A stretch of 64,000 nt of DNA from Stieleria magnilauensis (lineage in GTDB: Bacteria > Planctomycetota > Planctomycetia > Pirellulales > Pirellulaceae), in contig CP036432.1 in assembly GCA_007753675.1 (NCBI GenBank), positions 6,946,233 through 7,010,232 of the forward strand, written 5' to 3'. Numbering within the stretch: the first letter of the stretch is position 1; each line of letters begins with the position of its first letter. The notes below the pieces were generated by a model. The model was given only the letters and a program-made list of their open reading frames with translations, had not been told where the DNA came from and made no database searches. Positions 11,339-21,345 of this stretch are shown here, piece after piece. Position numbers and translations under genes: made by a program.

Positions 11339-11390
11339 AGCGGCAGGGCGCAAGCCCTCCGGTCTTTCAAGGACAAACCGGACGGCTCGC
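11339..11390. repeat. hairpin repeat, left part, interrupted by MITE and IS1182 element
   Basis: The left arm 11339-11363 (begins AGCGGCAGGGCGCAAGCC), loop and most of the right arm (11377-11390) match the intact hairpin at 45212-45274. The rest of the right arm is found at 13506-13516, after both mobile elements. This gives the empty-site sequence and shows the insertions went into the hairpin. Confidence 0.8.
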
Positions 11391-11502
11391 GGGCTGTCGG
11401 TTTAGTCGATGTGCCGAAATCAACGCGATGACGTTAGCCCGACGCGTGAGCGAGGGGCGCCGCGTGGCCTTGCTAACGCATGCGGGCTTAAATCAACAGG
11501 CC
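11391..11502. mobile_element. 112-bp MITE, copy 1, with 6-bp target duplication GCTCGC
   Basis: The element begins GGGCTGTCGGTTTAG and ends AAATCAACAGGCC, an imperfect terminal inverted repeat. It is flanked by GCTCGC at 11385-11390 and 11503-11508. The interior contains a foldback around GACGCGTGAGCGAGGGGC. The reverse complement of the element at 20711-20824 aligns along its whole length at roughly 80% identity by eye, with one 2-base gap. The tips match the ends of the adjacent IS1182 element, so it is probably a non-autonomous derivative mobilised by that transposase family. Confidence 0.85.
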
Positions 11503-11615
11503 GCTCGCGGCCTGTCGGTTTAGTGTATCCACAAAACGAGGGGAGGTGGCTTAGTAGGCATCGTCACGATGTTTGCTATTCTTGGCGGATCGTCGTCGCG
11601 ATTCACTTCTCACGC

Positions 11616-11622
11616 AGGGAGG
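11616..11622 (+). promoter_or_regulatory. Shine-Dalgarno site of the IS1182 transposase
   Basis: AGGGAGG eight bases upstream of GTG 11631. It decides the start against the longer frame that opens at 11409 outside the element. Confidence 0.65.
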
Positions 11623-11630
11623 CTTGCCCA

Positions 11631-13340
11631 GTGAGCCAGAGACAACCCAAGACCAGCTATTGGCAGGAAGCTCCTACACCACGCGGGCAACTGGTCCTCA
11701 TTCCCACCGCCCTGGAGGAACTCATCCCTCAGGATCATCCCGTTCGCTTGGTCGACGAGATTCTCGATCAGATGGACTGGACTGATTGGGAGGCGGCCTA
11801 CAACGGCGGATTCGGTCAGCCGCCGATCCATCCCAGCGTAATGGCAAAGATCCTGCTGTTTGCCATGATTCGGCGAATCCGATCCAGCCGGAACATTGAA
11901 TACGAACTCAAGCATTCGATCGATTTTATCTGGCTTAGCAGCGGTCGCCGCATCGATCACAGCACGATCAGCGACTTCCGCCGAAACAATAGTGATGCAG
12001 TCAAAGGCATCTTCAAACAAATGGTCAAGCTGGCGATCAACCTGGGGATCGCCAATCTCTCGGAACTGTGCATCGACGGCACACGCATCCTGGCTGACGC
12101 CAACAAATACAAGACTTGGACGGCCAAACGATTAGCCAAAGCACTCGAAGAACTTGACGCGCAAATTGATGAGGCCCTGGAAACCTTCGAAGTCAACGAC
12201 GCATGCGACGAAGATCTCATCGGCCAGGACGTTTCGGCGGACCGCCTCCCCGCCGCCGTCGCCAACTTGAAGTCACGCCGCTCACAACTGGCCGCTCATC
12301 TGGAGACGGTCAATGCGATGGACGAAGTCCGCAGGAAAAATGGGACGAAGGGCCCCGCCCAGTTACCCAAGACTGACACGGACAGTCGCATTCTTCCCAA
12401 TAAGGAGGGTGGTTACGCAGCCAACTTTACTCCGATGGCGACGACCGAAACGCAGAGCGGCCTGATCGTTGCGGCGGACGTCTTGATCGGCAACGTCGAA
12501 CACCACGAATTTGCCACCATCGTCGACTGTGTGGCCAACGACTTTGGAATTGACATTAAGCGAGTCATGGCTGACTCGGCTTACACGACGGGCAAAAACC
12601 TCACTGCGGCTGAGGAAAAACAGATCGAACTGATTGGCCCGCTTGCCGAAACCAATCGCGAGAACAACCCTGCCGAGCGTTCGGATTTGACTGAGCCCGT
12701 TGCCGCCGATCAGATTGATCAGTTGCCGGTTAATCCACAAACCAAACGATTTGACAAAGCAGCGTTTGTGTACGACGAAGCGAACGACTGCTATTACTGC
12801 CCGGCAGGCAAAGTGCTTTCACATCGGACGACCGAGAACACGACGCATGGCGACGGCTCTCCGGTGCAGCGAAAGGTTTACACCTGTTTTGAATGCGAGG
12901 GCTGCACGCTGGCTGGGCGTTGTCGCAAGAACGTGAAGCCAAAAGACGAGGCAAGCAGCAGCGAGGCATCGTCCCAGGAGTCCAGCGAAGCGACCTCGTC
13001 GGACAAGCGAGCGGGCAAGCGACGTGGTCGCAAGCCTGGCCCGCCACGTGGTCGCGAGACGATGCATGATGAGCATGAAGGAGCGCGACGTCGGCAGCGT
13101 GCGCGAATGGAAACGCCTGCAGCCAAAGAGGCTTACTCTCGTCGTCAGCATTTCGGTGAAACGCCTTTCGCCGTGATCAAGAGCACGCTTGATATGCGGC
13201 GATTCCTGCTTCGAGGTATCGCAGGTGTGAATCAAGAATGGCGCTGGGCGGCGACCGGATTCAATCTGAAGAAAATCATGAGTTACTTGGCGAAGCTGCG
13301 CGCCGCCGCGGCGACACAATCGCTCGGAACAGCAAACTAG
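11631..13340 (+). CDS. IS1182 family DDE transposase
   Basis: With GTG 11631 as start the product is 569 aa (MSQRQPKTSYWQEAPTP...). The frame is open from 11409, but that lies in the neighbouring MITE. The N-terminal DUF772-type domain includes HPVRLVDEILDQMDW, GQPPIHPSVMAKILLFAMIRRIRSSR and IDHSTISDFRR. The DDE core follows, with ELCIDGTRILADANK holding the first Asp and IKRVMADSAYTTGKN a second. A C-terminal region has cysteines (YYCPAGK, CFECEGC, CRKN), then a basic low-complexity linker and GETPFAVIKSTLDMRRFLLRG. The frame is intact, so the element may be active. Confidence 0.93.
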   Translation: MSQRQPKTSYWQEAPTPRGQLVLIPTALEELIPQDHPVRLVDEILDQMDWTDWEAAYNGGFGQPPIHPSVMAKILLFAMIRRIRSSRNIEYELKHSIDFIWLSSGRRIDHSTISDFRRNNSDAVKGIFKQMVKLAINLGIANLSELCIDGTRILADANKYKTWTAKRLAKALEELDAQIDEALETFEVNDACDEDLIGQDVSADRLPAAVANLKSRRSQLAAHLETVNAMDEVRRKNGTKGPAQLPKTDTDSRILPNKEGGYAANFTPMATTETQSGLIVAADVLIGNVEHHEFATIVDCVANDFGIDIKRVMADSAYTTGKNLTAAEEKQIELIGPLAETNRENNPAERSDLTEPVAADQIDQLPVNPQTKRFDKAAFVYDEANDCYYCPAGKVLSHRTTENTTHGDGSPVQRKVYTCFECEGCTLAGRCRKNVKPKDEASSSEASSQESSEATSSDKRAGKRRGRKPGPPRGRETMHDEHEGARRRQRARMETPAAKEAYSRRQHFGETPFAVIKSTLDMRRFLLRGIAGVNQEWRWAATGFNLKKIMSYLAKLRAAAATQSLGTAN

Positions 13341-13544
13341 GGGAGATAGGGGGCATTTCGAACGAAATCCGCCACAAGCGAACGCCACGATCCCGTCAAC
13401 ACGCTTACCAACGACTCTGGATGCCCCGCATAGCACCATAAAAGCCTCGTCCGGAACCAAAATCGAATCAACCGTCCCCAGGAACTAAATCGACAGGCCG
13501 CTCGCGCCGTTCCGCTAAAACGGTCGCTTATTTGAAGGCGGTCC

Positions 13545-20001: not shown

Positions 20002-21345
20002 ATGAAAACAAAACGTCATCCCAACGCAGTTCGTCGCATTGCCTGCTCGGCTGCGATCCTCGGGGCAATATTCGTTGCTGGCGTGTTTGGCCCCGTGCTT
20101 GGACCTGAGCGTTCCGCCGTCGGCCAGGAGCGTCCCCCACAGATGCTGAAGGTGCGGATCTCCGATGACGGTCATTCGTTCGTACTGGGAGACTCGGGCA
20201 AGCCCTTCGTTCCATGGGGTTTCAACTATCTCGGCGAATACGGCAAGCTGGTCGAGGAGTCGTGGGACAGCGATTGGGAACGCGTCGAACGAGACTTTCG
20301 CGGCATGCGAAATCTCGGCGCCAACGTCGTTCGCATTCATCTGCAGTTTGGCACCTACATGACAGGGCCGGATCAGTTCGACCAGGCACAACTCGACCGG
20401 CTGAAGCAGATGCTCGACCTCGCCAGCCAAGTCGGTTTGTACCTCGACGTCACCGGGCTGAGCTGTTACCGCTTGAACCGCATTCCCGCCTGGTACGACG
20501 CGCTGGACGAGTCGGAGCGGTGGGCTGTTCAGGCACGTTGGTGGAAGAGGATTGCCAAAACATGCAGTGGCCATCCCGCCGTCTTTTGCTACGACCTGAT
20601 GAACGAACCGATCGTTGGCGGGACGCCCAAGGAGGGCGAACCACGTTGGGTCGGCGGCGAAATCGACGGTCTCTACTTTGTGCAGCGGATTTCACTGGAA
20701 CCAGGCACGCGGCCTGTCGATGCAAGCCCACACGCGTCAGCAAGGGGCCACGCGGCGCCCCTCGCTGACGCGTCGGGCTGGCGTGATCGCATTGAATTCA
20801 AAAGATCGACCAAATCGACAGGCCGCACGCGAACGCGCAGCGAAATCGCCGAAGCGTGGGTCACGATGTTGACAGCAGCGATTCGAGAACAGGATGCACA
20901 GACGCCCATCACCGTCGGTGTGATCCCCTGGGCGATGGTCTGGCCCAATGCCAAGCCGTTCTTCTACTCCCCCGAAATCGCCAAGCACTTTGACTTCGTG
21001 AGCATTCACGCCTACCCCGGCAAGGACAAATTCGATCAGGACATCGCCGCGCTGGCGGTGTACGACATCGGCAAGCCGCTCGTCATTGAAGAGACGTTCC
21101 CGCTGAGTTGCTCAATCGATGACATGGATCGCTTCATCGAGGGCGGTAAAGATCACGTCGACGGTTGGATCAGTCATTACTTTGGCTATTCGATCCAAGA
21201 GCATGCCGCAGGAGCCGAGCCACATGGTGTCGCGCCCGAATCACCATTCGGCGTCACGGTCGCAGATTTCCTTCAGTACTGGAGCCAAAAGGGTCAGTCG
21301 ATTTCGACGACGCTGCCCCCAGCGATTAATCATGGCCGGGACTAA
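20002..21345 (+). CDS. GH5-like glycoside hydrolase (cellulase fold) with in-frame MITE insertion
   Basis: A 447-aa secreted (alpha/beta)8 glycosidase. The N-terminal hydrophobic segment at 13-34 acts as signal or anchor. Family features are GFNYLGEY near 73-80, GANVVRIHLQFG near 106-117, the acid/base Glu in CYDLMNEP (Glu202), SIHAYPG near 334-340 and a candidate nucleophile Glu in VIEETFPL (363-364). Residues 238-277 are encoded by a 114-bp mobile element plus one copy of its 6-bp target duplication. Removing those 120 bases restores an uninterrupted PGTR-TRSEIAEAW. The extra loop follows the acid/base strand region and precedes the rest of the barrel, so folding may or may not survive. Substrate unknown. 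Confidence 0.85.
   Translation: MKTKRHPNAVRRIACSAAILGAIFVAGVFGPVLGPERSAVGQERPPQMLKVRISDDGHSFVLGDSGKPFVPWGFNYLGEYGKLVEESWDSDWERVERDFRGMRNLGANVVRIHLQFGTYMTGPDQFDQAQLDRLKQMLDLASQVGLYLDVTGLSCYRLNRIPAWYDALDESERWAVQARWWKRIAKTCSGHPAVFCYDLMNEPIVGGTPKEGEPRWVGGEIDGLYFVQRISLEPGTRPVDASPHASARGHAAPLADASGWRDRIEFKRSTKSTGRTRTRSEIAEAWVTMLTAAIREQDAQTPITVGVIPWAMVWPNAKPFFYSPEIAKHFDFVSIHAYPGKDKFDQDIAALAVYDIGKPLVIEETFPLSCSIDDMDRFIEGGKDHVDGWISHYFGYSIQEHAAGAEPHGVAPESPFGVTVADFLQYWSQKGQSISTTLPPAINHGRD
20711..20824. mobile_element. 114-bp MITE, copy 2, inserted in frame inside the GH5-like gene
   Basis: Perfect 11-bp terminal inverted repeats (GGCCTGTCGAT / ATCGACAGGCC) and a target duplication GCACGC at 20705-20710 and 20825-20830. 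The interior is an imperfect foldback around GACGCGTCAGCGAGGGGC. It is in opposite orientation to the copy at 11391-11502. No stop codon occurs in the host gene's frame, and 114 + 6 = 120 bases keeps the frame. Confidence 0.88.

Follow-up and report, generated by a model that had tools for sequence, protein, structure and literature searches.

Palindromic elements of Rickettsia (RPE) and of Wolbachia are, in the sections of the cited reports that describe them, short repeats lying in frame in unrelated genes, where they encode a recurrent peptide in apparently functional host proteins (PMC10969869, PMC3733652, PMC4224334). Likewise, some QMITEs of Coxiella are found in frame in ORFs, the cases named in the relevant section being hypothetical proteins and a 3' extension (PMC5896051). 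Among insertion sequences, some members of the IS1182 family target palindromes, and IS1272 is described in the same passages as replacing a stem-loop without duplication (PMC5678879); for ISPse1, also of the IS1182 family, a figure given in a table of one report reads as a 4-bp duplication (PMC3281130). No in-frame MITE from a planctomycete, nor one linked to IS1182, was found in searches of the open-access PMC literature.

Here we describe such a MITE in a GH5 glycosidase gene of Stieleria magnilauensis, located in a stretch of 64,000 nucleotides that was analyzed as a whole (hereafter, the window). Judging by those sections, its closest known kind are the Rickettsia and Wolbachia palindromic elements, to which it is likened by behavior and not by sequence kinship; it comes from another phylum. 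Like RPE, it is inserted in frame in unrelated genes (eight loci, 12 copies). It stands apart from RPE in its terminal inverted repeats (TIRs), its 2-bp target duplication and its likely autonomous IS, in having 12 of 157 copies in genes, and in offering insert-free relatives and a measurement of selection from its shared inserts. Unlike the QMITE cases named in the section cited above, it is internal in lpxB, ubiD and a helicase gene, with insert-free sequences in related genomes.

The host gene (20002-21345, plus strand) is open over 447 codons, as an earlier note made from the sequence alone had stated, and its 447-aa product matches PF00150 (E 2.8e-12). Its Foldseek neighbors are glycoside hydrolase barrels, with GH5 enzymes among the best, and its N-terminus is signal-peptide-like as judged by eye. 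The MITE occupies positions 20709-20826 (118 bp, plus strand). Its left TIR, GCGGCCTGTCGAT (20709-20721, plus strand), matches the end of the IS at 11507-13501 and pairs with the right TIR (20814-20826, minus strand) at 13 of 13 bases. Between them lies a hairpin (20732-20773, plus strand) whose arms, 20732-20748 and 20757-20773, match at 94%. Folding of 20705-20830 as DNA yielded z = -6.85, with none of 200 shuffles equally stable. An Rfam scan of the window gave no match on the MITE at gathering score and found a single tRNA. The element is bordered by an AC target duplication (20707-20708 and 20827-20828), the 2-bp length of which follows from insert-free sequences and IS copies. Because 118 bp plus 2 bp amount to a net gain of 120 bp, or 40 codons, and this copy contains no stop in the phase of the host gene, the gene stayed open. 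The earlier note had delimited an element of 114 bp with 11-bp TIRs and GCACGC flanks. Its location and the net gain of 120 bp hold, both descriptions being equivalent in this respect, while the boundaries are revised: a 6-bp GCACGC duplication was set aside in favor of 2 bp in a GC-AC-GC context, on the evidence of insert-free lpxB and ubiD and of 17 of 19 IS copies. The added residues can equivalently be placed at 236-275, 237-276 or 238-277.

Homologues of the host protein were searched for the gap that the earlier note had proposed as a check. Such a gap, of exactly 40 residues between two anchors, was present in all 80 GH5 homologue loci compared (named genomes; the best 80 of 352 confirmed). 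Within the genus, homologues were found in 12 of 13 other genomes, the search giving no match in the remaining one (G001); when aligned, all lack 40 columns at one place. The closest homologue among the best 80 of 352, from Pirellulaceae bacterium SJ586 (L248), is 81% identical and reads RISQEPGKRKGSEIAEAW at the site, the window protein (RISLEPGTR...TRSEIAEAW) being 40 residues longer. So far, a single genome is known to carry the GH5 insert. As the own genome holds at least 77 non-overlapping copies of the element and 80 of 80 homologue loci are short by exactly 40 residues, the insert is not a product of chance; the MITE in the GH5 gene, and the in-frame addition of exactly 40 codons, are both confirmed.

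Copies of the MITE were collected with a covariance model built from 25 of them. In the own genome (G000), at least 77 non-overlapping copies were detected (rows of at least 33.4 bits, opposite-strand duplicates dropped), 64 of which score at least 50 bits; this is a lower bound, as the 106 rows at E <= 1 derive from 150 scored out of 7129 first-look candidates. A second copy in the window (11389-11504, minus strand; model match G000:C1:6957621-6957736) lies two bases from the IS. The element has features of a MITE: it is short, with perfect 13-bp TIRs and without a transposase gene, it is multi-copy, it shares its ends with an autonomous element (the IS at 11507-13501), and it duplicates a 2-bp target, as seen against insert-free lpxB and ubiD and in 59 of 102 copies of 117-119 bp. 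The other 43 copies lack the duplication, as do four of 11 in-gene copies tested. The GH5 copy is not fresh, its nearest other copy among 136 being 92.4% identical; mean column identity over the copies is 81%. At L102 (G000:C1:7061498-7062147), four truncated copies with a 180-bp period lie within a single open frame of 318 codons. At E <= 1e-8, the MITE is present in seven of 14 same-genus genomes, with at least 60 (own genome), 71, 43, 23, 21, 4, and 1 matches, all lower bounds. A family-wide search, with 24 candidates scored per genome, stricter filters and several same-genus carriers left out of the draw, gave matches at E <= 1e-10 in three of 149 genomes, two of this genus, and the MITE looks nearly genus-specific on these matches.

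We read 157 copies, 77 from the own genome and 80 from relatives (40 in G008, 26 in G009, 12 in G006, one each in G005 and G004), the latter taken from 163 matches counted in relatives. Twelve of them lie inside ORFs with a coding signal on both sides; they represent eight loci, add 40-41 codons and contain no stop. Four loci are shared by two genomes each, namely lpxB, ubiD, an Lhr-type helicase and a surface protein with a weak Ig-like match. The others are GH5, an exosortase-like ORF (L191), a 305-aa protein and a zinc-ribbon-like protein (L244), 'exosortase-like' and 'zinc-ribbon-like' being labels from sequence reading; a Pfam scan returned no family match for L244 or L002. L191 held up in one frame test but not in a shorter one. 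Insert-free homologues were seen at four loci (GH5, lpxB, ubiD and the helicase). For L244 we do not claim an insert-free allele, as the orthologues found in three genomes have a greater total length and align without interruption. At ubiD (L084 and L225), the outer ends of the MITE differ from the family symmetrically, with CCGG at both ends, and the palindrome is largely kept.

Other copies have no coding signal through both flanks, save the following. The coding flanks of copy G000_5463859 (L107) are out of frame and it contains one stop, which possibly marks a gene broken by the MITE. L009 was not counted as in-gene, since the MITE is N-terminal there, before a signal-peptide-like stretch; at this locus (L009:3-1766, minus strand) the open frame is 964 aa long and the MITE is in frame with it. 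Also not counted were L027, L087 and L114 (MITE upstream of the likely start), L113, L008, L018 and L089 (weak or antisense coding signal), L212 (coding flanks, but after a stop codon), copies 7555629, 7038668 and 5575039 (positive on both flanks, in ORFs of just 78, 71, and 41 aa), and copies in long open frames without a two-sided coding signal. An antisense row at L186 was taken as an artefact.

The shared inserts are distributed unevenly over the genus. That of lpxB is present in G000 and G008 and, by alignment, absent from G009, G006, G005, G004 and G010; for the seven remaining genomes, the comparison extends to residues 320-323, where matching stops. The ubiD insert is carried by G000 and G009; in the twelve others, the match is split in two at the insert site (five of these were aligned). 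The helicase insert occurs in G008 and G009; the match is likewise split in G000, whose site differs by another 9 bp nearby, and in eight others, and three genomes have no match. Among the three close species, each pair has one insert that is absent from the third. The two lpxB inserts are mutual best matches (91.5%, against 86.6% for the next), which favors a single insertion event. Over 200 bp on each side of the lpxB site, G000 differs from insert-free G009 at 13 of 400 positions and from G008 at 24 of 400. Precise loss in G009 would explain this pattern, as would gene conversion by an insert-free allele. Over the same distance at ubiD, the smallest difference is that between the two filled alleles (13/400), and the helicase flanks give a mixed picture.

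What the insert does to the GH5 enzyme had been left by the earlier note between a tolerated loop and a recent disablement. AlphaFold, run with 36 sequences, modeled the protein with a mean pLDDT of 82.5; 272 of 447 residues reach 90 or more, and residues 244-271 fall below 50. This low-confidence stretch sits between strand 224-231 and helix 279-297 of a confident barrel, the Ala-, Arg- and Ser-rich insert of 40 residues being predicted as a disordered loop between a barrel strand and the next helix. Disablement, with the frame open merely for want of time, appears unlikely to us, although it has some points in its favor: the insert lies 35 residues past the Glu of the NEP motif, a second GH5 homologue in the own genome (51% identical over the first matched piece) might make a loss tolerable, and with the insert in one genome alone, constraint after the insertion is beyond measuring. 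On the other hand, the predicted loop falls outside the confident barrel, and comparison with L248 outside the insert gives a pN/pS of 0.13, a value that spans both branches and the time preceding insertion. Both Glu of the NEP and EE motifs, which we take to be the catalytic residues, are kept (E202 and E364). Because of these Glu, and because purifying selection acts on the genes (lpxB, ubiD, helicase and surface protein) in which sister inserts persist, an enzyme that tolerates the loop is the favored of the two alternatives.

To our knowledge, the enzyme that mobilizes the Rickettsia elements is not known. For the planctomycete MITE, a likely source of transposase lies in the window, namely an IS1182-family insertion sequence of 1995 bp (11507-13501, plus strand) with the same TIRs. 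Its transposase is an IS1182-type DDE enzyme (NF033551, 329.2 bits; cut-off 270). The ORF as listed (11409-13340, plus strand) has its first codons inside the adjoining MITE, and the true start probably lies further in. The IS ends read GCGGCCTGTCG(G/A)TTTAGT; they are common to IS and MITE over 16-18 bp, and the rest of the sequence is not shared. Pairs of such ends 1995 bp apart numbered 35 (pairing by hand), and the window IS and the 22 further copies read are identical at 1988-1995 of 1995 bases (at least 99.6%). A 2-bp duplication was present at 17 of the 19 copies tested out of these 23. Both IS and MITE frequently target GC-NN-GC contexts and the hairpin loops of REP-like repeats, and complementary arms of at least five bases flank the target in 11 of 19 IS and 23 of 102 MITE copies, as against 4.2% of random flanks in the own genome. 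Frequent insertion into hairpin loops with a 2-bp duplication sets this IS apart from IS1272 as portrayed in the passages cited above. Many IS copies (L328-L347) sit in the loops of REP-like hairpins (ACGGC-GCGA-GCCGT, AGGGC-GCAA-GCCCT) that constitute a separate repeat family, and at L343 (G000:C1:161534-165685) an IS pair lies in tandem with exactly two bases between.

Since the window contains an IS that matches the MITE in its ends and in a 2-bp duplication, the MITE is most likely moved in trans by the IS1182-family transposase. Spread by a different, unseen transposase or by recombination alone would fit the observations that the two are alike at their ends only and that MITE copies are far more divergent among themselves than IS copies; it is nevertheless improbable, given the identity of the ends, of the duplication length and of the frequent targets.

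To evaluate selection on the inserted residues, the four shared inserts (windows of 40-48 codons) were pooled. They show a pS of 0.089 and a pN of 0.092 (pN/pS 1.04), compared with 0.179 and 0.025 (pN/pS 0.14) in the host genes outside them (Fisher p = 4e-9). The pooled inserts do not deviate from neutrality (binomial p = 1.0). Single inserts gave pN/pS values of 1.61, 1.00, 2.11, and 0.41 on 16, 15, 7, and 9 changes. As amino-acid constraint is not seen in these inserts while their hosts are constrained, they appear to be tolerated loops, probably functionless. Silent divergence in the inserts reaches, on small numbers, one half of the host-gene value, which plain drift from a common ancestor would not predict.

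This low pS, together with the pN/pS of 0.41 for the surface protein insert (9 changes) and a similar peptide wherever the MITE sits in a gene, always in one of three phases, could point to a functional, domesticated segment selected for its amino-acid sequence. All 12 in-gene copies read one phase, (x)RPVD...STGR or a variant, four loci with the MITE forward and four with it reverse. Of 115 non-genic copies, 34 are open in the forward phase and 15 in the reverse phase; the other four phases are open in 26-43, and the one with 43 is used by no gene insert; in the own genome alone, the forward and reverse phases are open in 7 and 9 of 48, least of all. The gene-used forward phase is open in the intergenic exemplars L168, L170, L171 and L208 (in L171, one other also). 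We weighed the common codon phase as a sign of selection for the peptide: openness can account for the four forward loci and not for the four reverse loci, leaving the common phase partly explained. A selected segment nonetheless seems very unlikely, since the peptide likeness follows from a likeness of DNA that intergenic copies have as well, the pooled inserts do not deviate from neutrality in pN/pS, and the GH5 insert is absent from every one of the best 80 of 352 homologue loci. That the insert is a sequencing or assembly artefact can practically be dismissed, the own genome being a single contig and the same-site inserts of lpxB, ubiD and the helicase occurring in separate genome records.

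We hold with high confidence that the GH5 insert is a non-autonomous MITE, most likely mobilized by an IS1182-family transposase, that would be read as an open loop and presumably drifts without amino-acid constraint. In the mechanism that we propose, an IS1182-family transposase would recognize the shared terminal repeats and move the MITE in trans. Entry into the GC-AC-GC target of the GH5 gene would duplicate 2 bp, the sum of 118 and 2 bp and the lack of a stop in phase would keep the gene open, and the MITE would be translated as a 40-residue loop. Insertions that shift the frame or bear a stop are presumably purged, so that the in-gene copies would be those openly read. Such an insert would then drift without amino-acid constraint and perhaps be precisely lost.

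How mobile DNA turns into protein is an old question, posed by the Rickettsia elements. We tentatively suggest, as a reading that may or may not hold, that planctomycetes possess a counterpart of RPE with an identifiable motor, whose net length of 120 bp and preferred phase would make it a reversible, nearly neutral 40-residue loop that is repeatedly gained and precisely lost. With the insert at hand alongside relatives that lack it, a likely transposase and an estimate of selection on the inserted residues, the tolerance of insertions, their precise loss and the passage from junk loop to protein segment would become testable.
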